A DNA stretch of 64,000 bases from Erysipelotrichales bacterium (GTDB taxonomy: Bacteria > Bacillota_I > Bacilli_A > RF39 > UBA660), in contig JAFLUY010000001.1 of the NCBI GenBank assembly GCA_022508565.1, positions 1-64,000 of the forward strand, written 5' to 3'. The translations under genes and the position numbers were made by a program. Below, one piece after another: positions 352 to 48,196 of this stretch (position 1 is its first letter; every line of letters begins with the position of its first letter). Under the pieces are notes generated by a model. It did no database searches. It worked only from the letters and a program-made list of their open reading frames with translations, and was not told the DNA's origin.

Positions 352-966
352 ATGAATATATTAATAGGAAGCATTAGTGAAGTAATAAGTAATATTAGTA
401 GTTATACAGAATCATTTTTAAATAGTATAGGAATTTGGGGAGCTATCTTCAGTTGTTTACTAATAACAGTTGAATCGATTCTTCCTTTTTTGCCTGTGTG
501 TGTATTTATTACGTTAGTATTCTATAGCTTTGGGAGTGTTTTGGGTTTTTTTATTAGCTGGATATTCACTTGTTTAGGGTGTTTCTTATCTTTTACATTA
601 TTTAGATCAAAAATTAAGAATTGGTTTGAACGCAAATTTATAAAAAACAAATCAGGAGATAAAATAAAAAGACTGATGAAGCGTATCGATAATATATCTT
701 TATCCAGTTTAGCTATTTTAGTTGCAATACCATTTACTCCAGCAAGTGTTGTAAATGTTGCGGCAGGTTTATCTAATATGTCTTCAAAAAAATTTATGAC
801 GGCTATGTTAATTGGAAAAGTATTTATGGTTTATTTCTGGGGATATATTGGTACAACTCTATTAGAATGTTTAAAACACCCAGTTTATTTAGTAAGAATA
901 GCAATAATGTTAATTCTTGCTTATATAATAAGTAAAATAATCAATAAACACTTTAATTTGGATTAG
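352..966 (+). CDS. VTT/DedA-like integral membrane protein (TVP38/TMEM64 type)
   Basis: A 204-residue membrane protein with about five hydrophobic segments. Residues around 45-60 (ESILPFLPVCVFITLVF) and 120-140 (IPFTPASVVNVAAGLSNMSS) resemble the two half-hairpins of the VTT (SNARE-associated) domain, including the conserved Pro-rich re-entrant piece and the G-x-S-x-M segment. Family members are implicated in lipid translocation or membrane homeostasis; the substrate here is unknown. I chose the ATG at 352 over an in-frame GTG nine bases upstream because the GTG lies inside the GTGAT ribosome binding site. A TATAAT box at 331 leaves a leader of only about 10 nt. Confidence 0.7.
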   Translation: MNILIGSISEVISNISSYTESFLNSIGIWGAIFSCLLITVESILPFLPVCVFITLVFYSFGSVLGFFISWIFTCLGCFLSFTLFRSKIKNWFERKFIKNKSGDKIKRLMKRIDNISLSSLAILVAIPFTPASVVNVAAGLSNMSSKKFMTAMLIGKVFMVYFWGYIGTTLLECLKHPVYLVRIAIMLILAYIISKIINKHFNLD

Positions 967-4908: not shown

Positions 4909-5785
4909 AATCATTAGAAAAAGCTTTAAAGATGCATTTAAAAGTGTTTTCAGAAATTTCTCATTAAGTATGGCTTCTATTTCTTGTACATCTATTACTT
5001 TAATAATTGTTGCTATATCACTTTTAGTAACTTATAATGTTAATTCTATTACCAAGGATATTGAAGATGTTTTAACAATTGTTGCATTTGTTGATACTAA
5101 TGCAACAGATGAAGATATCAAACGTTTAGATGAAGATATTTTTAATCTAAGTAATATCTACACAAACGAATATAAATCTAAAGAAGAAATTAAAGCACAG
5201 TTAAGTGAAGATGAAGATTTAAAACAAATCTTAGATACATTAGATGAAAACCCTGTACAATCAACTTTTGTTATAAGTGTTAAAGATGTTAGAAAAATAT
5301 CTGAAACAGCAAACCAAATAAAAGGAATGGATAAAATTGTTTCAGTTAAATATGGCGAATCTTTAGTTAATAAATTAATCTCTATGTTTGATATCATTAG
5401 AAATGCTTGTATTGTTGCTGTAGTTGCTTTAATCTTAGTAACGGCATTCTTAATTGGAAACACAATAAAAATAACAATTTTCTCAAGAAGAAATGAAATA
5501 GGAATTATGCGTTTAGTTGGAACAAGTAATTTTGTTATAAAACAACCTTTCTTAATTGAAGGTGCAGTATTAGGTTTAATTGGAAGTATTATTCCGGTAT
5601 TATTAACTATTTATGGTTATTCTTTCCTTTATGATTATGTTGGAGGAAAAGTATTTACTGATCTTATAGTTTTAGTTAAACCTAATGTAATTATCTATCA
5701 AGTAAGTCTAGTGTTATTGATAGTTGGTGTTATTGTTGGTATGTTTGGCTCTCTAAGAGCAGTAAGGAAGTATCTAAAAGTATAA
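4895..5785 (+). CDS. ftsX: FtsX, cell-division membrane protein
   Basis: A 296-residue FtsX. It has an N-terminal amphipathic stretch and a first membrane helix (about 20-45), an extracytoplasmic loop (about 46-165) that in this family contacts the hydrolase coiled coil, then three further membrane helices in the FtsX/MacB-type permease domain (RRNEIGIMRLVGTSNFVIKQPF is the conserved coupling segment). It partners FtsE and most likely the hydrolase encoded next, whose ATG overlaps the ftsX stop. An alternative ATG lies six bases downstream of the chosen one. Confidence 0.93.
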   Translation: MKMFRIIRKSFKDAFKSVFRNFSLSMASISCTSITLIIVAISLLVTYNVNSITKDIEDVLTIVAFVDTNATDEDIKRLDEDIFNLSNIYTNEYKSKEEIKAQLSEDEDLKQILDTLDENPVQSTFVISVKDVRKISETANQIKGMDKIVSVKYGESLVNKLISMFDIIRNACIVAVVALILVTAFLIGNTIKITIFSRRNEIGIMRLVGTSNFVIKQPFLIEGAVLGLIGSIIPVLLTIYGYSFLYDYVGGKVFTDLIVLVKPNVIIYQVSLVLLIVGVIVGMFGSLRAVRKYLKV

Positions 5786-6990
5786 TGAAAAGATTAGTTA
5801 GAATTTCTTTAATTATTATTTTTGCGATTTTTATATCAGTACCAACATATAATGTTTATGCAGCAAGTGATGCTCAAACATTAGCTGAATTAAGAAGAGA
5901 TTTGGCTGCTTATAAAGCACAAAAAAGTGAAAACACTAAAAAACAAAATGCTACTAAAGCAGAAATTAATAGTGCTAAAAACAGTGTTTCAAATAAACAA
6001 GTTGAAATAGAAGCAAACCAAAAAAAGGTTAATGATGCTATTCAAGAAAGTGAACAACTTGAAAAAGAAATAGCAAACGGTAAAAAAGAACTAGCTGAAT
6101 TAGTTCAAAATTATCAAATTGCTAGTGGTGATAATATCTACTTGGAATATATCTTTAAAGCAACGAGTTTTGAAGATTTAGTATATCGTTATGCGGTTAT
6201 GGAACAAATAATGAACTATCAAGAAAGTCTTATCTCTACTTGGAAAGATAAAATTGAGTATAACAAACAATTAAAAGTAGATCTTGAAGCTAGAGAAGTA
6301 ACTTTAAACCAGCAAATAAAAGATTTAGCAAAAGAAATTGATAATTTAAATGATGAACTTGAAGATTATTTTGATATTTCTTTATCAGTAGAACAAGACA
6401 TTAAATCAACTCAAGAATTAATTACAACTTATGAAAAAATGGGTTGTAAAGAAAATCAAAATTTACAAGAATGTATTGGTGAGCTTGGAGATACAAGATT
6501 AATTAGACCATTAAATAAAGGTGTTATTACATCTTTATGGGGATACCGTACACATCCTACTACAGGAGTTGCAAATACATTCCATAACGGAATAGATATT
6601 GGAGGTAATTCAGTTGGTACTTCGGTTTATTCGGCAGCAAATGGAATGGTTGGTAAAATAATCTATAAAGCATCATGTGGTGGTAACCAAGTTTATATTT
6701 ATCACAATATTAATGGTAAAAAATACACAACTGTTTATATGCATTTAAATTCAATTAATGTTAAATTAGGTCAAATAGTTAAAAATTCTTCAGTTATTGG
6801 AACTGTAGGAGGACAAAAGGGAACTGGAGATACATGTACCACAGGTGCACATCTTCACTTTGGAACAGGTTCTGGTTGGTATGGGTCTGATTATACAAGT
6901 AGTAGTACTTGGAAGGCTAAATCAATAAATCCAGCAACTTTAGTTTCTTTCCCTGGAAAAGGTAAATATTTCTATTCAAGAAATGGTTAG
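5785..6990 (+). CDS. FtsEX-linked peptidoglycan hydrolase (coiled coil + M23/LytM)
   Basis: A 401-residue secreted protein with a signal peptide (residues 1-26, cleavage near VYAAS), a long antiparallel coiled coil (about 30-220), and a C-terminal M23 LytM endopeptidase domain (about 245-390). The zinc ligands HNGID (HxxxD) and GAHLHFG (HxH) are intact, so it should be an active metallopeptidase cutting peptide crosslinks. The architecture is that of EnvC, and functionally of CwlO/PcsB, whose coiled coil binds FtsX. Start overlap with ftsX (TAATG) supports a dedicated FtsEX-hydrolase module. Residues around 220-235 contain two Cys (GCKENQNLQEC) that could form a disulfide. Confidence 0.93.
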   Translation: MKRLVRISLIIIFAIFISVPTYNVYAASDAQTLAELRRDLAAYKAQKSENTKKQNATKAEINSAKNSVSNKQVEIEANQKKVNDAIQESEQLEKEIANGKKELAELVQNYQIASGDNIYLEYIFKATSFEDLVYRYAVMEQIMNYQESLISTWKDKIEYNKQLKVDLEAREVTLNQQIKDLAKEIDNLNDELEDYFDISLSVEQDIKSTQELITTYEKMGCKENQNLQECIGELGDTRLIRPLNKGVITSLWGYRTHPTTGVANTFHNGIDIGGNSVGTSVYSAANGMVGKIIYKASCGGNQVYIYHNINGKKYTTVYMHLNSINVKLGQIVKNSSVIGTVGGQKGTGDTCTTGAHLHFGTGSGWYGSDYTSSSTWKAKSINPATLVSFPGKGKYFYSRNG

Positions 6991-6999
6991 GAGGATTTT

Positions 7000-7794
7000 A
7001 TGAAAGAAAGATTAATAAGTGGAATAATTATTGTTGCAATTGTTGCTTTACTATTATATGTTGGAGGAATTTTCTTCGATATAGGTGTTGGAATACTTGC
7101 AGTTTGTTCTTTTTATGAATTTATGAAATCAAAAAAAGATTTAATAGTTCCAACTTTAATGAAGATAGTAGCACTAATATGTATGTTGTTACTTATCTAT
7201 ATAAATGTTGATGGACATACATTTGTCTTTGGGCTTAACTTTGAGACAATATCACTTTTATTTTTACTTATATTAAGTCCAACTGTTTTCTTAACAAATC
7301 ACAAATATAAAGTAAATGACGCTTTCTATTTATCAGCTGTAACTTTATTTTTAGGAACAGTATTTAATTTATTTTTAGCTTTATACCATGATTCAGTTAT
7401 TTTATTTATCTTTATAATTCTCTTATCGTTTGCAACAGATACATTTGCATTCTGTGGAGGAAAATTAATTGGTAAACATACATTTACTAAAATTTCACCA
7501 AATAAGACAATTGAAGGATGTTTAATTGGATCAATTATTGGAACAATTATAGGTACAACCTATTATTCGACATTTATTTTAGATAAACCAAGTAATATAG
7601 TAACTATAACTGTTTGTATTTTTATTCTTACAGTTATCGGACAAATTGGAGATTTATTCTTCAGTTTAATTAAACGTGAAAATGGTATTAAAGATTTTTC
7701 AAATCTAATCCCAGGACATGGTGGTATCTTAGATAGAATAGATTCTATAATATTTATCCTTATCGCGTTTGTATTTATGATTAGATTCATGTAG
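7000..7794 (+). CDS. cdsA: Phosphatidate cytidylyltransferase
   Basis: A 264-residue polytopic membrane protein (about eight helices) carrying the CDS signature near the C-terminus: S-x-x-KR-x4-KD, then PGHGGILDRID. It makes CDP-diacylglycerol from CTP and phosphatidate, the precursor of anionic phospholipids. It lies 9 bases after the hydrolase and 9 bases before rseP, with GGAGG sites at both junctions, so it belongs to the ftsEX operon. The usual upstream partner uppS is absent. The CDP-alcohol phosphatidyltransferase at 24232 probably uses its product. Confidence 0.95.
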   Translation: MKERLISGIIIVAIVALLLYVGGIFFDIGVGILAVCSFYEFMKSKKDLIVPTLMKIVALICMLLLIYINVDGHTFVFGLNFETISLLFLLILSPTVFLTNHKYKVNDAFYLSAVTLFLGTVFNLFLALYHDSVILFIFIILLSFATDTFAFCGGKLIGKHTFTKISPNKTIEGCLIGSIIGTIIGTTYYSTFILDKPSNIVTITVCIFILTVIGQIGDLFFSLIKRENGIKDFSNLIPGHGGILDRIDSIIFILIAFVFMIRFM

Positions 7795-7803
7795 GAGGGT
7801 GTC

Positions 7804-9087
7804 ATGAGTAAGAAAGAGACAACAGAAGACAAAACAAAAAAGAAAAATGTAAAAGAAGAGATTAAAGAAGAAAAAGAACAATCTGCAATTGTTAGTTTAA
7901 TTGAATTACTTGCTATTATTGCTTTTGTAATTATTGTTCTAGTATTTTTCCCAAATACAGCTATTTGGAATATAGTAGTTTTATTGCTTATTTTAACAGT
8001 ATTAATATTTGTGCATGAATTTGGACATTTTATAACTGGTAAAATGTGTGGAGTTCATATCTATGAATTTGCCTTAGGTATGGGACCAAAAGTCTTAGGA
8101 TTTAGAAGAAAAAATGATCCTACTATCTATACTTTAAGAGCATTCCCAATTGGCGGTTATTGCCAACTTGCTGGGGAAGAATTAGAAGATGATGAATCTT
8201 TACCAAAAGATAAGTTCATGTGTAATAAAACTAAACTACAAAGATTATTAATTCTTGTTGCTGGTGTAACAATGAATTTTATTACTGCTTTTGTTTTACT
8301 ATTTTTAATTGCTATTTGTTTTGGTTCAACTGATCAGTCCAATATTATTGGTAATGTTGAAAAAGGTTCAGTTGCTTACGAAGCAGGAATAAGAGCAGGA
8401 GATAAAATAGTTAGTTGTAATGGTTATGAAATAACAACTTGGGATAAATTATCAGTTGTTACTGCTATGAAAAATAAAAATGATTATTATGAATATGTTA
8501 TTGAACATAAAGATGGAACAAGTGAGTCTTATAAATTAGTTCCAGCAGATTATATCATGTTTGATAATGAAGCTATACGTATAACAGATGAACATACAAA
8601 AGAAAAAATATTAGAGGAATATAATAAAAGCGAAGATGAAGTAGTAATCAGCCAAAAAATTGGTGTATCTGCACCATCCGAAAAAAAGTATGGATTTATT
8701 AATTCAATAAAATATGCAGCAATTAAGTTTAAAAGTATTGTCGTAACAATGTTAATGATAATCTGGGGACTTATTACTGGTAAGATTGGACTAAATGCTT
8801 TATCCGGTCCAGTTGGCATGTATTCAATTGTTGATGAAGCAGCAAAATATGGAATTGAAAATATTATTTATTTATCGGCATATCTTTCAATTAACTTAGG
8901 AGTTTTAAATATCTTACCGATACCTGCATTTGATGGTGGAAGAGTTTTATTTGTGCTTATAGAAGCAATTACAAGAAAAAAAGTTAATGCTAAAGTAGAA
9001 GCTATAATTCATTCAGTTTGCTTTGTATTATTAATGATTTTAATGTTATATATCACTTGTAAAGATATATTAAGACTTATTTTTTAA
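7804..9087 (+). CDS. rseP: RseP/RasP site-2 metalloprotease
   Basis: A 427-residue intramembrane zinc protease: HEFGH at residues 71-75, a PDZ domain (about 180-230), and the second metal-binding segment LNILPIPAFDGGRV near the C-terminus. It cuts membrane-spanning anti-sigma factors and leftover signal peptides. The N-terminus carries an unusual lysine/glutamate-rich cytoplasmic extension (about residues 1-26) and an additional hydrophobic segment (about 27-50) before the catalytic helix, where relatives usually start close to the HExxH helix. It is the last gene of the ftsE-ftsX-hydrolase-cdsA-rseP unit. Confidence 0.94.
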   Translation: MSKKETTEDKTKKKNVKEEIKEEKEQSAIVSLIELLAIIAFVIIVLVFFPNTAIWNIVVLLLILTVLIFVHEFGHFITGKMCGVHIYEFALGMGPKVLGFRRKNDPTIYTLRAFPIGGYCQLAGEELEDDESLPKDKFMCNKTKLQRLLILVAGVTMNFITAFVLLFLIAICFGSTDQSNIIGNVEKGSVAYEAGIRAGDKIVSCNGYEITTWDKLSVVTAMKNKNDYYEYVIEHKDGTSESYKLVPADYIMFDNEAIRITDEHTKEKILEEYNKSEDEVVISQKIGVSAPSEKKYGFINSIKYAAIKFKSIVVTMLMIIWGLITGKIGLNALSGPVGMYSIVDEAAKYGIENIIYLSAYLSINLGVLNILPIPAFDGGRVLFVLIEAITRKKVNAKVEAIIHSVCFVLLMILMLYITCKDILRLIF

Positions 9088-39811: not shown

Positions 39812-40876
39812 ATGAAAGAAAAATTAATAGTAATTCTATTTGCAATTTACATATTTGCATTCTCAATTTTAGGAATAGTACTTCCTAAAGATATTTATAG
39901 CTACAATGAACGAAGAAAATTAAAAGAATTTCCTTCATTAACACTAGACAATACTTATGTTAATAAATTAGATGCATATTTACTTGATCACTTTCCATAC
40001 CGGGATTTTTTTCGAAGTATAAAGGCTAATTTTAATTATAAAGTTTTAGCTCAATTAGATAACAATAAAATAGTTATTAAAGATGAGTATATTTTTAAAT
40101 TAAACTATCCAACAAATCAAAAATCAATTGAAAACTATAAAAAAAATATTAAAAAGTTATTAGAAAATTTTACAGAAAATAATAAAGTTTATATGGTGAT
40201 CATTCCTGATAAAAATTATTATTTAAAAGATGATAACTTATTAAAACTAGATTATAATTATTTAGAAAAAGAATTAACAAAACTAGATATTAATTATATT
40301 GATATTAAAAATCTTTTAAACTTAGAAGATTTTTATAAAACTGATACACATTGGAGACAAGAAAGACTTATGAAGATTGTCCAAGAACTTAATAAACAAA
40401 TGAATATTCCATACGAAGAACAAGATTTTAAAGAAAATGTTTATTCTTCTTTTTATGGTGTTTATTATGGTGAATCAGCAATTAATAAAAAGCCAGATAC
40501 TCTAATTTATTTAAATAACTCTTTATTAGATTCATTAAAAGTAACATATTTAGAAAATCCAAAGTTAACTACAATTTATAATTTAGATAAATTAAAATCT
40601 AAAGATAGTTATGAGGTTTTCTTAGATGGTGCAAGTTCATTTATTGAAATTATTAATGAGAATAGTCTTACTGAAAAAGAATTAGTTGTTTTTAGAGACT
40701 CTTTTGGTAGTAGTATTGCACCTCTTCTAACACCATATTATAAAAAAATAACTTTAATAGATAATCGCTATATTGATAGCAATCATTTTCTTGAAAAAAT
40801 AATATTTAAAGATCAGGATATATTATTTTTAAATAGTACACTTTTAATAAATGAAAGTTATACTTTAAAAGGCTAA
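39812..40876 (+). CDS. DHHW (AlgJ/AlgX-like) extracytoplasmic protein
   Basis: A 354-residue protein with an N-terminal membrane anchor (about 1-25) and a SGNH-hydrolase-related domain. Features are DHFPYRDFFRS (about 60-70), DTHWRQ (the Asp-His pair) and VVFRDSFGSSIAPLL (the Ser loop). Such DHHW/AlgJ-type proteins accept the acyl group from a MBOAT partner and pass it to a glycan. Pairing with the upstream MBOAT is strong positional support. ATG at 39812 after AGGTGACTTT is used; the GTG at 39803 lies in the site. Confidence 0.85.
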   Translation: MKEKLIVILFAIYIFAFSILGIVLPKDIYSYNERRKLKEFPSLTLDNTYVNKLDAYLLDHFPYRDFFRSIKANFNYKVLAQLDNNKIVIKDEYIFKLNYPTNQKSIENYKKNIKKLLENFTENNKVYMVIIPDKNYYLKDDNLLKLDYNYLEKELTKLDINYIDIKNLLNLEDFYKTDTHWRQERLMKIVQELNKQMNIPYEEQDFKENVYSSFYGVYYGESAINKKPDTLIYLNNSLLDSLKVTYLENPKLTTIYNLDKLKSKDSYEVFLDGASSFIEIINENSLTEKELVVFRDSFGSSIAPLLTPYYKKITLIDNRYIDSNHFLEKIIFKDQDILFLNSTLLINESYTLKG

Positions 40877-40896
40877 GCTTTATTCTTAGCTTTTTT
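40868..40896 (+). terminator. Terminator after MBOAT-DHHW
   Basis: AAAGGCTAAG / CTTAGCTTTT stem and T run. Confidence 0.8.
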
Positions 40897-40967
40897 ATTT
40901 ATTTAAAAGAAAAAGAAGACATTTTATCGATTGTTTGATAGAATATAGGCAATTGGGGCGAAATAAT

Positions 40968-43900
40968 ATGGCAAATACAAAGAAAAACACACAAAATGAA
41001 GATTATGATACTATCTTATCTGCTAGTTGCTTGCAAGATTATTTAAAAATTATCAAAAAAACAAAACCAGCTACTAGGAAAGAAAATGATGAGATGTTTT
41101 CTAAATATCAAAACGGCGATTTGGCAATCAAAGATTTAATAATTAAAAAGAATCTAAGTTTAGTAGTATCTATAGTGTTTGAAATTGGTGGAAATTTATC
41201 TGATGAACAAAAACTTGAATATATTGAAAGTGGAACTATCGGACTTATAGAAGCTGTTGATGCATTTGATCCAAGTAGAGGAACTGCTTTTTCAACCTAT
41301 GCAACATATTATATCGAAATGAGAATAAACAGTTACCGTTATCATAATAAACGTTTAATAAGAAGACCAGCTTATATGGAAGTAGCCTTAGCTAAATATA
41401 ATAGGTTGATAAGTGAATACGAAAAAGCTGGAAAACCATTACCATCTAGAGATGAAATTTGCACAATCCTTGAAATCTCCAAAGAAGTTTTAAAAAGAAT
41501 AGAAGAAGATTATAAATTAGAAGCAAGCAGTTTAGATGCAGCTGTCAAAAATGATGATGAAAAATCTGACGACCTAAGCGAGTTTGTAGGTGTAGAAGAA
41601 TCGGGCTTTAATTCTCTATTGGACGAAATAATTCTAGAAGAAATTATAAAAACTCTTAAATATAATACTAATGAATACGAATATTTTATTCTTTACTATA
41701 GAATGATAAGTTCAGAACAAAAATCTTGTGCTGAAATTGGAAATTACTTTGGTTTATCAAGAGTAGCAATTTATAATGTTGAGATGAAATTAAAATCAAA
41801 AATAAAAGAAATGTTTGATGAAAATCATGTTTTAAAAAGAGAATTTATAGATGAAGTAAAAATGAAGTTCCCATTTGAAAGTATTAAAGTTACTCCAACA
41901 TTATTAGAAAACTATACTTTGTATTTCTATTTAAGGGAAAATTTTTTTGCAAAAGATCAAATTATCTTAAAAGAAAAGTTAATTAGTAACCTTACTTTTG
42001 ATATTAGAAGAGTAGCATCTGAGATTATGGAAAGCGAAGAATATGTTCGTGAGAAAAGTATAGATATTGATAGACTTATCAGAAAAACTACAAATGATAT
42101 CCGCTACCAATTATTTTCTAATAACCTTATAAAAAGTTTAAAAAATAAAATATATTTTCTAGATTTAGATTCGGATTTAAGTGATTATTTTGATATAAGA
42201 AAAATAATAAATGATTATTGGCAAGATAAATCACTTAATGAAGTATTGGAAGCATCATCTTTATATAATATTCAAAGTGATGAAAATTTAATGAATTTAA
42301 TTAATAAGTTTTATGGGTTTGTTCCCAAAAAAGATATTAGCTTTAATAAGGAACGTTTAGAAAGAGATGTTAATTACAGTCTATATGGTTTTGCAAAAAA
42401 AGATTTGCCTATTGAAAAATTTTATTCAGCGTTTTTAGAAAATCAAAATAAATTTACTTCTAGAGAAAGAGACTTTTTAAATGCCTATATATTTAAAAAA
42501 GAAGAAGTATCTGAAGATCCTTCTAATTCATGTATGATCTATGATTCATCTGTAATTGATAAATTAGTTCTTCTTTACTATAAAACAGAAAATTATAAAA
42601 ATGATAATTTTAGTTTAGAAAAGTATAAGTTCGTGCGTGATGAATGTATGAATAATATAGGGGAAAGAGGAATTATGCTTCTAGATCTTTATTATGGCCT
42701 TAATGGGGATAGTATGCTGATTAGAGAAATGGCTGAATTTTTAAAAGAATATGAAGATGAAGTAGAAAAAGATTTTAGAAGAGCCAAAAATAATGCCATA
42801 TCAATATATCTCGGCACTAGTCAATATAGTTTTGAAAAAGATAAAGATATTTATGCAAGTATTTTAAATGACGAAAACTTTGTCTTAGGGAGTCCTCATT
42901 TGGAAATAGCTAAAATGTTTTTCTTAGATGGAAAAACGTATGATGAAATTGCAAATCTATATGAGATAACACCTAAGCTTACCCAAAGAAGAGTATCAGA
43001 GTTAAATAAATATGCATGCACAGTTATGGATTATTATCGCTTTGGTATTACAAGTACAAAAAAGAATTACCCAAAAGAATTTTTAATTAGTATTTTAAAT
43101 AAAACTGAATATGATGAAGAAATGAAAGATATTTTAACTACTTATATAGATAATAAAAGTTCTGTTATTACAGCAGAAATTTATCAAAAAGATCTTGAAG
43201 AAGTTCGAAATATCATAAGAAGATTTAATAATTTAGTTAATAAGATTGCTATTTCGGAAGTTGATGTAACTAAAGAAGATGTAGAAGCAGCTGTTTTAGA
43301 ACATGATTCAACAAATATATTAAGCGAAAGAGAAAGAATTATTCTCTCACTTAATTATGGTTTAAAAAACATATATAATCCATCTGGCAAAAAGAAATAT
43401 CCTATAGATATAGCAGAGCAATTGGAAATTAATAGTAATATTGGTTCTGTAATAAAAAAAGCCAAAGAACATGTATCTGCACACAAGTTAGGTCTATTAA
43501 AAACAGCAATAGATTTTATTGATCGTAATAAGTTAGAAACTGTGCTTAGAGATCAGAGACTACCATTAAATGAAGAAGATAAAAATATAATTATTAATGC
43601 TTATGGTTTATATGATACAGAGTATTTATCAATTAAAGAAATTTCTTTAAAGTATAATCTTAGAGAACCAATAGCAAGAAAAAGATTATATAGGGGGATA
43701 ATAACTATAAATAAATATCTAAATCAAGAAATTGATAAGGCAGTTTTATTTGAAGTAGACATAGAGCCTTATTTAAAATATTTTATTATAGAAGATAGGG
43801 AAATTTTAACTCTTTTATATAAAGATAAATTAACTCAATTAGAGATACAACAGAAATATAATCTATCCCATCATCAATTTGATCTTTTAATGCAAAAGAT

Positions 43901-44615
43901 GCTTATGCACTTAAGTGATTTAAAATCAGGTTTGGCAACTGGTATTGATTTTGATTATTTTTGGGATAATGCCCTAGAGGAAGATATACCATTTTATGGT
44001 AATAAAGAGTTAGCAGTTGAGTTATGTTTCTTACATTATGAAAAAAGATTGACGCGAAGTGATATTGTTAAATATCATCACCCAGAATTAAGTGACAACG
44101 CAGTAGGTGAGTTGATAAGATCATTTACCGTTGCAATTATCAAACATCAACATGGTATAAGAAAAGCAAATGATTTTTCTTATGAGGAAGTTGCTGATTA
44201 TTACAATAGACATAAAGATAGTCTTGGAGCTGTTAATACAAAGATTTATGGACTTTATTTCAAGAAAGTTCAAAAAAATGGTCCTTTTGCTAAAATACGA
44301 CCAAGAAAACTTATTACATATGATTTAATAAAGGAAAAATTCCCTGATCATTTTAGATTAGATAATACTAATCCAGATCAAGTAAGAGAAATTTTAGGTG
44401 ATTATGGAGATACGCTTTCGGAAGAGTCAAGAGAAACTCTAGAATCGTTATTTGGTGTAACCCATGCTAATTTGTTAAGTGATGAAGAATGGGAGCAAAT
44501 TATTAATTTCTTAGGATTTCTTCAAATAAGGATTGAAAAAGATAATCAAAAAATAAAAAAAGATGTTTTAGAAGAAAGTAATAAAACAAAAAAGAGAAAA
44601 GAATTAAAACAGTAA
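40968..44615 (+). CDS. Giant sigma-70-family protein with repeated sigma-4-like modules
   Basis: A 1215-residue protein. Residues about 20-60 match sigma region 1.2 (YL..I...AT..E, then AIKDLIIKKN). Residues 60-138 are a full region 2 (LSLVVSIVFEIGG, GTIGLIEAVDAFDPSRGTAF, STYATYYIEMRIN, RLIRRPAYM). Region 3-like 158-182 and sigma-4-like 230-282 (IGNYFGLSRVAIYNVEMKL) follow. Then come further helix-turn-helix-like units near 564-612, 642-684, 783-842 (LSERERIILSLNYGL), 866-918, 941-983 and 1012-1057, ending in a Lys-rich tail. Primary sigma factors are 350-600 residues. It is monocistronic and intact. Promoter recognition is plausible but untested; the repeats could bind several -35 sites or partners. 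Confidence 0.8.
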   Translation: MANTKKNTQNEDYDTILSASCLQDYLKIIKKTKPATRKENDEMFSKYQNGDLAIKDLIIKKNLSLVVSIVFEIGGNLSDEQKLEYIESGTIGLIEAVDAFDPSRGTAFSTYATYYIEMRINSYRYHNKRLIRRPAYMEVALAKYNRLISEYEKAGKPLPSRDEICTILEISKEVLKRIEEDYKLEASSLDAAVKNDDEKSDDLSEFVGVEESGFNSLLDEIILEEIIKTLKYNTNEYEYFILYYRMISSEQKSCAEIGNYFGLSRVAIYNVEMKLKSKIKEMFDENHVLKREFIDEVKMKFPFESIKVTPTLLENYTLYFYLRENFFAKDQIILKEKLISNLTFDIRRVASEIMESEEYVREKSIDIDRLIRKTTNDIRYQLFSNNLIKSLKNKIYFLDLDSDLSDYFDIRKIINDYWQDKSLNEVLEASSLYNIQSDENLMNLINKFYGFVPKKDISFNKERLERDVNYSLYGFAKKDLPIEKFYSAFLENQNKFTSRERDFLNAYIFKKEEVSEDPSNSCMIYDSSVIDKLVLLYYKTENYKNDNFSLEKYKFVRDECMNNIGERGIMLLDLYYGLNGDSMLIREMAEFLKEYEDEVEKDFRRAKNNAISIYLGTSQYSFEKDKDIYASILNDENFVLGSPHLEIAKMFFLDGKTYDEIANLYEITPKLTQRRVSELNKYACTVMDYYRFGITSTKKNYPKEFLISILNKTEYDEEMKDILTTYIDNKSSVITAEIYQKDLEEVRNIIRRFNNLVNKIAISEVDVTKEDVEAAVLEHDSTNILSERERIILSLNYGLKNIYNPSGKKKYPIDIAEQLEINSNIGSVIKKAKEHVSAHKLGLLKTAIDFIDRNKLETVLRDQRLPLNEEDKNIIINAYGLYDTEYLSIKEISLKYNLREPIARKRLYRGIITINKYLNQEIDKAVLFEVDIEPYLKYFIIEDREILTLLYKDKLTQLEIQQKYNLSHHQFDLLMQKMLMHLSDLKSGLATGIDFDYFWDNALEEDIPFYGNKELAVELCFLHYEKRLTRSDIVKYHHPELSDNAVGELIRSFTVAIIKHQHGIRKANDFSYEEVADYYNRHKDSLGAVNTKIYGLYFKKVQKNGPFAKIRPRKLITYDLIKEKFPDHFRLDNTNPDQVREILGDYGDTLSEESRETLESLFGVTHANLLSDEEWEQIINFLGFLQIRIEKDNQKIKKDVLEESNKTKKRKELKQ

Positions 44616-45251: not shown

Positions 45252-45308
45252 CTTGCAACTATTTACTAGACTTTGATACAATAATTATAAGAAATGGGTG
45301 GTTTTAAG

Positions 45309-46676
45309 GTGGCAACAAGAAAAAAAGTTGACAAAGTAAAAGAAGAATTTGAAAGAAAAATTGAAATATTTAAAAAGAATAATGCAGCATTATGTGATAT
45401 GCTTGCACTTTATAGTTATTTTGTAATTCATGAAAAAAATTTTGATCCAGCAGGTTATATTACACTAGAAGCGGTAATTAAAGATTTAGAAGATCCAGAT
45501 ATTAACGTTCCTTTCAAGGCAGACACTTTAGAATCTATGGTTGATTATTGTTGGGAACAAGAACGTGATTTGCTAAGAGAACTAAAGGAAACTAAATATT
45601 ATAAAAGATTAGAATCTAAAATACGTGAGGATTACCGTACAAACCAAATAAGAATGTTCTTTGCAGTTGATCATACTTGTTCAAAGCAAGAATTATTAAA
45701 AAAGCCATATGATTTCATTGGGAATTTATGTGAATATTCATGTAATTTTATAAGCGAAATTTTATGTTCCGATATGCCAGTGAATAAAAAAATAGATGTT
45801 TTTTATGATGTGTTAATGTATTATATCAAAAACTACTATAAATCAAAATTGGAACATCTTTTAAGTCCAACGGGTGCTGGTCATGATTTATCAAGAACAA
45901 AATATACAGATAAAGAAAAAAAGATAAATAAACTATTAGAATCTTTTAAAAATGCTATGGATAAAGATATAGAAAGAAAAAAGAATTTATTTGAAGCAAT
46001 AGCGACTACAGATGCATCTATTAGTGCTAGGGTAGATATTCTTTGCTATCTAGAAAGCAATAACATAGTAGATTTTATGAATCTAACACATACTGTAAAA
46101 ATTGATGGCCAAAAAATGAAAGGATCTATAATTACTTGCATTAGCAATAATAATCTAGATAACTTGAAACAACTATATGAATTGGATGAATATAATAATC
46201 TATCAGAAAAAATTAGACGAGTTGATGATCTTTATATTTTATCATCAATAAGCATATTTCAACTTGCTTCATTTATTAAATTATCAAATTATAATACAAG
46301 TATAGAAGATATTAGATTGATAGCAAAAAGAGTATTAGAATATCAAATTGATTTAGGAAGAGTACGTGAAGATGTAATAGCTGATATAAAGGATGCAATT
46401 ATTCATAAAGCCAGAGATAAAAAGGAATTTAAAATTTATTGTGAATTAGCTGATTTATTTATAAAAGAATCAGATTATAAACAATATAAAAAAGATCAAG
46501 AAGAAAAAGAAACTCAAGAAGAGAAAATTAGAGAACAACAAATTGCGGAATTAGAAAATGCTCAATACCAATTATACTTGAGACTTTATAATATGAATGA
46601 ATCATTACAAGAACAAGTACCAGGTAAGAAAGTAATTAAAGAATTAACATTTAAAAAGCCAAGTAGCGAAAATTAA
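45309..46676 (+). CDS. Unknown mostly helical protein (455 aa)
   Basis: I do not recognise it. It is a soluble, almost wholly helical protein without signal peptide, Cys-rich near residues 120-150 (DHTCSKQ, NLCEYSCNF), with a charged coiled-coil C-terminus (about 395-440). It stands alone between terminators. GTG at 45309 is taken as start because GGGTGG lies seven bases upstream; the ATG at 45294 overlaps that site and would add five residues. Loosely similar in composition and length to the unknown at 61543, but I cannot show homology by eye. Confidence 0.65.
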   Translation: MATRKKVDKVKEEFERKIEIFKKNNAALCDMLALYSYFVIHEKNFDPAGYITLEAVIKDLEDPDINVPFKADTLESMVDYCWEQERDLLRELKETKYYKRLESKIREDYRTNQIRMFFAVDHTCSKQELLKKPYDFIGNLCEYSCNFISEILCSDMPVNKKIDVFYDVLMYYIKNYYKSKLEHLLSPTGAGHDLSRTKYTDKEKKINKLLESFKNAMDKDIERKKNLFEAIATTDASISARVDILCYLESNNIVDFMNLTHTVKIDGQKMKGSIITCISNNNLDNLKQLYELDEYNNLSEKIRRVDDLYILSSISIFQLASFIKLSNYNTSIEDIRLIAKRVLEYQIDLGRVREDVIADIKDAIIHKARDKKEFKIYCELADLFIKESDYKQYKKDQEEKETQEEKIREQQIAELENAQYQLYLRLYNMNESLQEQVPGKKVIKELTFKKPSSEN

Positions 46677-46677
46677 T

Positions 46678-46712
46678 AAAAAGACAGCTTATAAATGAAG
46701 TTGTCTTTTTGT
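46678..46712 (+). terminator. Terminator
   Basis: AAAAAGACAGCTT / AAGTTGTCTTTTT 13-bp stem with one G-T pair. Confidence 0.8.
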
Positions 46713-46739
46713 TTGTATTTTTAATTTTCAACCATAATA
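46711..46739 (+). promoter_or_regulatory. Possible sigma-G-like promoter before oxidoreductase
   Basis: GTTTG (one mismatch to GHATR), 17-nt spacer, CATAATA (46733-46739, full match). The -10 lies in a CCAT-N7-ATGG dyad as at 20117 and 50815. The weakest of the four. Confidence 0.4.
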
Positions 46740-46753
46740 TTAATGGTGATATT

Positions 46754-48196
46754 ATGGAAAGCAAAAGTGTTTGGAAAATAAATGAAGCGAATGACTTCAA
46801 ATCGTTAAACAGAAGTATAAATGTTGATATAGCTATTATTGGTGGTGGAATAACTGGTTTATCATGTGCTTATTTTTTAAAAGATGAAAAATTTAAAGTA
46901 GCCTTATTTGAAAAAGATAAACTTTATTCATCAGTTACAGCTAGAACAACAGGAAAAATAACATTTTTACAACAAGGTCTTTTAACAAAAATTAAACACA
47001 TTTATAACACCAATACGGCTATTTCATATTATAATTCTCAAAAAGAAGCAATTAATATTCTTGATAGCATTATAAAAAAGGAAAATATTGACTGTGATCT
47101 AAAAAAGGTTAGCAGTTATTATTTTACAAATGATAAAGCTAAAGTTAAAAAAATTAAAGAAGAAAAAGATATTTTAGAAAGATGTGGAGAAGAAGTAACT
47201 TATAATTATAATTTACCTGATGGATTAAACCTTGAATTTGGTATAAGTTGTGATAATACTTATGTTTTTAATCCAACAAAGTATTTGAATTCTTTAAGTC
47301 AGATTATAAAAGATAAAATAAGTATTTATGAAAATAGTAATGTAACTAAAATTAATAGATTAGATAATCATTTTGAATTAATTGTTAATAATCATAAAGT
47401 AAAGTGTAAGAAAGTCATTATAGCCTCACACTATCCATACTTTTTATTTCCATATCTTATGCCGCTTAAGTGTTATTTGGAAAAGTCATATATCGGAGCA
47501 TACAAAGATGAAAGTGACATAAACTTTAGTGCCATTAATGAAGGCAAACCAACTTTATCAATAAGATATGTTGAAGATGATATTCTCTATAAACTAATAC
47601 TTACTAATTCAGATAATTTGGCTATTAATAGTAATGATCAAAAAAACTTTTCCGTACTTATGCAAGGGAAACCATCATACCTTTGGTCAAATGTTGATAT
47701 AATAACTAAAGATTATATGCCGTATATTGGTGCAATTGAAGAAAACTTATATATTGCAACTGGTTACAATACTTGGGGAATGACTAATGGAACTTTAGCA
47801 GGTTCTATTATAAAAGACATAATTATGAATAAAGATAATGAATATATTAAATTATTTTCTGCCAAAAGGCATGATAACTTAAATACTCTAATTAGATATC
47901 CCTTATTTATTGCATCGAGTGCATATTCATTTATATCATCAAAATTAGTGAAAAATAAATCATGGTATAAAAGCAATATAGAATTTAAAAAGATAAATGG
48001 TGAGAATGTTGGCATTTATCATGATGAAAATGGTGCTTATTATATAGTTAAAAATAAGTGTCCACATCTAGGTTGTAGTTTGATATTTAATGAAATAGAA
48101 AAAACATGGGATTGTCCATGTCATGGTTCTCGTTTTGACCTATCGGGTAAGTCAATTTGTGGTCCAGCTAATTATGATATAACTTTTAAAGAATAA
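46754..48196 (+). CDS. FAD-dependent oxidoreductase with C-terminal Rieske domain
   Basis: A 480-residue protein. Residues about 20-375 are a DAO-type FAD domain (IAIIGGGITGLSCAYFL dinucleotide site, then TARTTGKITFLQQGL, and IATGYNTWGMTNGT near its end). Residues about 400-480 are a Rieske [2Fe-2S] domain with CPHLGCSL and CPCHGSRF ligands (CxH...CxxH). This fusion is known in Bacillus (YhfW-like) and its substrate is undefined. The Rieske cluster could pass electrons to FAD. ATG at 46754 follows GGTGATATT. The promoter is sigma-G-like, suggesting late-sporulation expression, by inference. Confidence 0.87.
   Translation: MESKSVWKINEANDFKSLNRSINVDIAIIGGGITGLSCAYFLKDEKFKVALFEKDKLYSSVTARTTGKITFLQQGLLTKIKHIYNTNTAISYYNSQKEAINILDSIIKKENIDCDLKKVSSYYFTNDKAKVKKIKEEKDILERCGEEVTYNYNLPDGLNLEFGISCDNTYVFNPTKYLNSLSQIIKDKISIYENSNVTKINRLDNHFELIVNNHKVKCKKVIIASHYPYFLFPYLMPLKCYLEKSYIGAYKDESDINFSAINEGKPTLSIRYVEDDILYKLILTNSDNLAINSNDQKNFSVLMQGKPSYLWSNVDIITKDYMPYIGAIEENLYIATGYNTWGMTNGTLAGSIIKDIIMNKDNEYIKLFSAKRHDNLNTLIRYPLFIASSAYSFISSKLVKNKSWYKSNIEFKKINGENVGIYHDENGAYYIVKNKCPHLGCSLIFNEIEKTWDCPCHGSRFDLSGKSICGPANYDITFKE

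Follow-up and report, generated by a model that had tools for sequence, protein, structure and literature searches.

A giant sigma-70-like protein with a predicted array of region-4-type units in the uncultured gut lineage RF39

The giant sigma gene and its product

The window analysed here is a stretch of 64,000 nucleotides from an Erysipelotrichales bacterium (GenBank assembly GCA_022508565.1, contig JAFLUY010000001.1, positions 1 to 64,000 of the forward strand), whose positions serve as coordinates below. At 40968-44615 (+) it carries a gene for a giant sigma-70-like protein, to which an earlier note made from the sequence had drawn attention. The gene is a single uninterrupted open reading frame (ORF) of 1,215 residues with an ATG at 40968, a stop codon at 44613-44615 and zero internal stops; start, stop and length were confirmed exactly. 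Judged by profile comparison and predicted structure, the product comprises a sigma core followed by eight extra four-helix units that are related to sigma region 4, one at residues 311-377 (unit A) and seven in tandem at 548-1064 (units 1 to 7), with a repeat spacing of about 65-85 residues. The protein is tentatively considered an alternative sigma-70 factor in which an array of eight region-4-type helix-turn-helix (HTH) units may extend or substitute promoter contacts, the likeliest of the readings considered, with a likelihood placed just short of even.

The sigma core

Residues 17-289 match the full-length NCBIfam RpoS/RpoD models (best E-value 4e-29), and in the PDB the best match to the family profile is SigA, at residues 16-278 (E-value 3e-56). 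The Pfam domain Sigma70_r2 reaches 28.9 bits in the window protein, against a cut-off of 24, and is found in 10 of 12 family members. Region 3 is covered by the RpoS/RpoD models and by helices of the AlphaFold model, yet Sigma70_r3 is detected in just four of the 12. The AlphaFold model of residues 1-1196 has a mean predicted local distance difference test (pLDDT) score of 82, and a sigma-S fold match extends over residues 17-292 (Z 17, 247 residues aligned), with a root-mean-square deviation (rmsd) of 24.5 A that reflects domain placement.

In E. coli sigma-70, D403, Q406, E407, and N409 bind the beta-prime coiled coil, and W433, Q437, and T440 melt or read the -10 element. Among 25 giants, these core-binding positions are kept in 22, 21, 21, and 14 members, respectively, the -10 residues in 4, 12, and 5, and the -35 residues in 15-18. 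Several members, e.g. L112, L059, and L093, retain a near-canonical region 2.4.

The region-4-type array

A profile of SigA region 4, built from 24 SigA-like proteins, was compared by hhalign with 80-column windows of the 27-sequence family alignment. Values of 84-95% were obtained for the windows at about residues 555-606, 633-687, 703-751, 784-836, and 853-904, 53% for unit A (324-365 window) and 30% for 926-990; unit 7 did not match SigA region 4 directly. The control, consisting of 42 column-shuffled windows, yielded one value of 16% and otherwise at most 1.5%. Comparison of the unit profiles with one another linked unit A and units 1 to 7, most pairs at 60-97% and some pairs of unit 4 or unit 7 more weakly, and all 66 shuffled pairs stayed at or below 8%. 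When fragments devoid of the canonical region 4 were searched with Pfam, Sigma70_r4 ranked first in 9 of 10 members (best E-value 4e-18) and lay above the Pfam cut-off in most of them, with generic HTH families scoring lower.

The AlphaFold model shows the same four-helix pattern nine times in the window protein, that is in the canonical region 4 and the eight extra units. Since the fold search with the whole model listed sigma-core matches throughout, the array was folded and searched separately; the model of residues 530-915 (pLDDT 84) was compared unit by unit with solved structures. Unit 1 matched WhiG (Z 8.5, rmsd 1.9) and SigA region 4 (Z 8.3, rmsd 2.1), with 60 aligned residues each, and unit 2 a YlxM-type HTH (1xsv; Z 10.1, rmsd 2.6, 71 aligned) and SigH region 4 (Z 8.0, rmsd 1.5, 55 aligned). 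For unit 3 the match was KorA on operator DNA (Z 8.5, rmsd 2.1, 63 aligned) and for unit 5 SigA region 4 on DNA (3n97; Z 8.0, rmsd 1.4, 51 aligned). Foldseek with the array alone returned nothing with an E-value below 0.001, and among viral structures nothing below 0.098. The sequence evidence outweighs these structural matches because such Z values lie near the level reached by common helical arrangements.

The earlier note had counted about six sigma-4-like modules, near residues 564, 642, 783, 866, 941, and 1012. These fall into units 1, 2, 4, 5, 6, and 7 and are borne out by hhalign, Pfam, and AlphaFold, with the shuffled controls failing; the units at 311-377 and 700-766 had been missed, and the count is eight. 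HTH folds are accordingly predicted in the C-terminal 900 residues, both as four-helix units of the AlphaFold model and as matches to solved region-4 structures.

Table 1. Features of the giant sigma gene, its upstream sequence and its product (percentages are hhalign values)
Feature	Residues	Coordinates	Strand	Evidence and remarks
Hairpin resembling a terminator, followed by a T tail, located after the DHHW gene and before the giant sigma gene		40867..40895	+	1 found; 0.7 expected from shuffled sequence
Weak promoter-like site AAGACA-17-TAGAAT with extended TG		40916..40944	+	Could be chance; such sites not enriched over shuffles
GGGG, possible ribosome-binding site, about 10 bases 5' of the ATG		40955-40958	+	Sequence
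Giant sigma-70-like gene	1,215 amino acids	40968..44615	+	ATG start; intact homologous ORFs elsewhere, 1,180-1,230 amino acids
Sigma region 2	53-126	41124..41345	+	Pfam Sigma70_r2 at 59-121; AlphaFold helices; sigma-S fold match
Probable sigma region 3	135-184	41370..41519	+	Spanned by full-length RpoS/RpoD models; AlphaFold helices
Canonical sigma region 4	213-286	41604..41825	+	98.8% to SigA region 4
Unit A	311-377	41898..42098	+	97% to own region 4, 53% to SigA region 4
Helical spacer	378-547	42099..42608	+	AlphaFold; no clear unit
Possible degenerate unit uB, in spacer	near 420-475			24% to SigA region 4, 85-88% to units 1 and 5
Unit 1	548-618	42609..42821	+	94%; recognition-helix start acidic
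Unit 2	620-694	42825..43049	+	87%
Unit 3	700-766	43065..43265	+	87%
Unit 4, contains LSERERIIL start	767-843	43266..43496	+	95%; basic recognition helix
Unit 5	850-921	43515..43730	+	94%; most basic recognition helix, net +4.7 over family
Unit 6	926-990	43743..43937	+	Pfam Sigma70_r4 best stretch 943-967; 96-97% to units 1, 2, 3
Unit 7, most diverged	992-1064	43941..44159	+	95% to unit 2, 90% to unit 5, 85% to unit 1; AlphaFold four-helix pattern
C-terminal helical tail	1065-1215	44160..44612	+	AlphaFold helical; profile comparison of candidate u8 negative

Genomic surroundings

The giant sigma gene is surrounded by ordinary chromosomal genes (PPDK, an MBOAT/DHHW pair, a phosphoribosyltransferase, and recD2), and the upstream hairpin suggests that it forms its own transcription unit. 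No RNA families were found in the window. Two genes downstream, at 45294-46676 (+), a lysine/glutamate-rich protein of 460 residues is encoded that has no Pfam matches, followed at 46709-48196 (+) by a one-chain FAD-dependent oxidoreductase that ends in a Rieske [2Fe-2S] domain. The same genome encodes a standard SigA (370-residue frame) and three more sigma-like genes. An enlarged sigma-like protein of this genome (G000:C12:112686-113258, L003; 516-residue frame) carries its extra sequence N-terminal of the core.

Family, distribution and variants

Searches for full-length relatives gave matches in a single family of uncultured Bacilli, CAG-1000 of the order RF39. One carrier is Candidatus Coprovivens excrementavium, whose genus has been placed in this order and family (PMC8035907). 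The array is present in 16 of 386 sampled CAG-1000 genomes (12 of the 252 good ones) and in 10 of 150 genera. The class-wide set of 395 genomes gave two full matches, in the window's own genome and in one of its family, and one further match elsewhere that is short, weak, and broken by stops. Homologues of matching length exist, with frames of 1,180-1,230 amino acids intact in most of about ten genera.

Copy number and array length vary. One genome of the window's genus (G007) holds about six copies, of which some are truncated at the end of a contig, and at L058 two giant copies lie within one locus. Between paralogues the array changes in length by whole units: one (L062:5125-8016, +) is devoid of residues 693-842, i.e. 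of two units, and in another (L040:3-3800, -) the block 191-437 is duplicated. Stand-alone relatives of 411-436 amino acids, ending after unit A, occur in several genomes and nest within the giant clade, a position compatible with the array having been lost repeatedly. The main split is common to the trees of core and array, which indicates that both parts are inherited together; recent swapping of arrays between cores was rejected on the same ground. A pair of adjacent sigma-like genes without the array (L097:6139-7515 and 7497-8906, -, in G005; also L052) encodes proteins of 459 and 470 amino acids and matches the family profile to about residue 460, past unit A.

Two relatives are broken, one by a frame change shortly after residue 404 (L088:7842-12750, -, in G117) and one by an in-frame TAA inside region 4 (L090:52-4880, -, in G083). 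A natural two-gene form with the array as a separate gene was considered for these genomes and rejected, the junctions being this frame change and this stop codon. One or two extra sigma-like genes adjoin each broken copy. The broken copies, the patchy distribution and the many paralogues in G007 would suit a decaying or selfish expansion devoid of a cellular role. This explanation is regarded as very improbable in view of the long intact frames, of ratios of nonsynonymous to synonymous substitution (dN/dS) mostly at 0.17-0.4 over long regions, and of chromosomal sites between housekeeping genes, with no phage or plasmid match for the giant. In tblastn searches of phages and plasmids no record covered at least 80% of the query and matches were confined to the sigma core; no viral contig was found in IMG/VR, and PHROGs gave nothing for the extension. 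An origin from a phage, plasmid or virus was rejected on these grounds. A conserved operon partner was likewise rejected, as the neighbours vary by genus (OBG/rpmA, parB/uvrB, recD2) and none is common.

A second oversized sigma-70 line of 713-1,211 amino acids was encountered in CAG-1000 (L044:1669-5301 and 5346-8108, +; L045:1638-4493, -; L046, L047, and L048). It has about 150-220 residues N-terminal of the core, and several of its members carry post-core repeats around a motif like LFDLRFGDNLDERYAP, of which L045 has three near-identical copies. Scanning this line with the giant-family profile gave no reliable array match.

Selection, DNA contact and function

The array is under purifying selection no weaker than that on the core. 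Between the window protein and its nearest relative L054, the array shows 66% identity and a dN/dS of 0.19, the core 50% and 0.32; for L095 and L111 the values are 75% and 0.26 for the array and 63% and 0.39 for the core, and in the pair L059/L093 array and core are about equal (0.38 and 0.35). The low dN/dS of the array relative to the core indicates that it is no passenger.

The family looks like a group of factors that still dock on RNA polymerase with their promoter reading changed, the window copy being the extreme case as far as its residues tell. Of 13 residues diagnostic for core binding and for the -10 and -35 elements, this copy retains Y430 and R584 alone; its 11 substitutions include D403E, Q406E, E407S, and N409T. 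The complete sigma core claimed in the earlier note therefore holds for the fold and fails for most of the textbook residues. Further points weigh, together with these substitutions, against an alternative sigma factor whose array contacts promoters. The window protein is acidic overall (isoelectric point 5.4), no target promoter of the factor was identified, and the array can be dispensable, given the array-less relatives of 411-436 amino acids. Moreover, the array positions equivalent to DNA contacts are not conserved beyond control polar positions, neither among four close relatives (0.53 vs 0.57) nor among 12 members (0.18 vs 0.32), and conservation of contact positions was rejected as proof of DNA binding.

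The changed residues of the window copy, along with an array more constrained than the core in the window lineage, would also be expected of a DNA-binding repressor or DNA organiser of sigma origin that retains the core fold and has lost its use as a sigma factor. Such a protein is thought improbable, since core-binding residues are kept in 21-22 of the 25 members, the near-canonical region 2.4 persists in L112, L059, and L093, and a core dN/dS of 0.32-0.39 means that the core is not free to decay.

The charge of the recognition helices bears on another explanation, according to which the protein is a true alternative sigma factor and the array a solenoid of region-4 folds, mostly without DNA binding, that serves protein interaction or autoregulation and gates the core. 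Recognition-helix starts are acidic in units 1 and 7, in line with such a solenoid and with the acidity of the whole protein, and among the array helices conservation is highest in 928-938, which is the first helix of unit 6 and not its recognition helix. The contact-equivalent positions and the nesting of array-less relatives among the giants, as if by repeated loss, point in the same direction. Where sigma factors carry C-terminal extensions, these are often regulatory (PMC8999054), and the gating would parallel the TPR, WD40, and SnoaL extensions of ECF42, ECF57, and ECF41 factors, respectively. Against this stand the recognition helices of the extra units, which are more basic than the remaining helices in that part of the protein (p = 0.0002), basic in units 2 to 5 and most clearly so in units 3, 4, and 5, as well as the specific best match of the array to Sigma70_r4. 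Variable contacts are equally expected from diverging specificities: paralogous sigma-I factors of Bacilli/Clostridia, such as SigI1 and SigI6, differ in non-conserved HTH residues that are read in the major groove (PMC10575876). From the alignments, the variable contact positions are compatible with diverging paralogue specificities or with lost DNA contact, and a gating solenoid ranks next after the promoter-contacting sigma factor, as a serious alternative. The functions put forward in the earlier note, i.e. contact with several -35 elements, an exchangeable region 4, or a DNA organiser, are weakened by the absence of extra conservation at contact-equivalent positions and by the acidity of some recognition helices.

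Relation to known systems

Group 1/2 sigma-70 factors (SigA/RpoD, RpoS) resemble the window protein in the order of region 2, region 3 (probable in the window protein), and region 4; they stop after region 4, whereas the window protein adds about 930 residues with eight region-4-type units. Sigma-I factors, of about 250 residues, have one replacement C-terminal HTH domain in contrast to an added array. YlxM/UPF0122 proteins and KorA, whose folds are matched by units 2 and 3, are single-domain proteins of about 100 residues. The general layout is shared with sigma factors that carry a fused C-terminal module, which are two-domain factors (regions 2 and 4) whose regulatory modules are unrelated and reach about 400 residues (PMC8999054); the core of the window protein includes a probable region 3, and its extension consists of region-4 relatives. 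Pfam found region 4 and HTH families in this extension, and none of SnoaL, TPR, and WD40.

MzaA of the MZA anti-phage system is likewise large and has a sigma core, but its extra part precedes the core, whereas that of the window protein follows it. The window protein matches MzaA models (PADLOC MzaA, E-value 6e-12; NCBIfam NF041931, E-value 9e-18) with its sigma core only. These matches cover model positions 397-513 of 683 and 447-702 of 726, with 64.5 bits against an NCBIfam cut-off of 800, and do not amount to a full-length match. A search of the literature, with subscription papers and preprints outside its scope, turned up no report of multiplied region 4 in a sigma factor, which suggests, within these limits, that the giant family was previously undescribed.

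Proposed mode of action and implications

As an alternative sigma factor with promoter-contacting units, the protein would dock on RNA polymerase through region 2 of its N-terminal core, like other sigma factors, and the array would continue from the -35 position, following promoter DNA further upstream, the side of the polymerase, or both. Some units, those with basic recognition helices (2, 4, and 5 in the window copy), might touch DNA and supply the specificity that the core lost as its reading of the -10 and -35 elements degraded; the other units may serve as spacers or docking surfaces. Paralogues would then be separate factors for different promoter sets. A more specific version, rated as rather unlikely, is a reader of composite promoters, where the core is bound to polymerase and region-4 units track successive turns of upstream DNA, their combination setting specificity. 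If this version is true, the gain or loss of units between paralogues (L062, L040) would rewire regulons.

Sigma factors are thought to meet the promoter at two main places, with one region 2 and one region 4. By multiplying region 4 within a single chain, this conserved family would show that the module can form arrays, like zinc fingers or TAL repeats, and it raises the testable question of how many units read DNA. The uncultured gut lineage RF39, with its small genomes and several oversized sigma lines, would be a place of rebuilt transcription initiation, and the family suggests a new bacterial mode of promoter recognition or RNA polymerase regulation.

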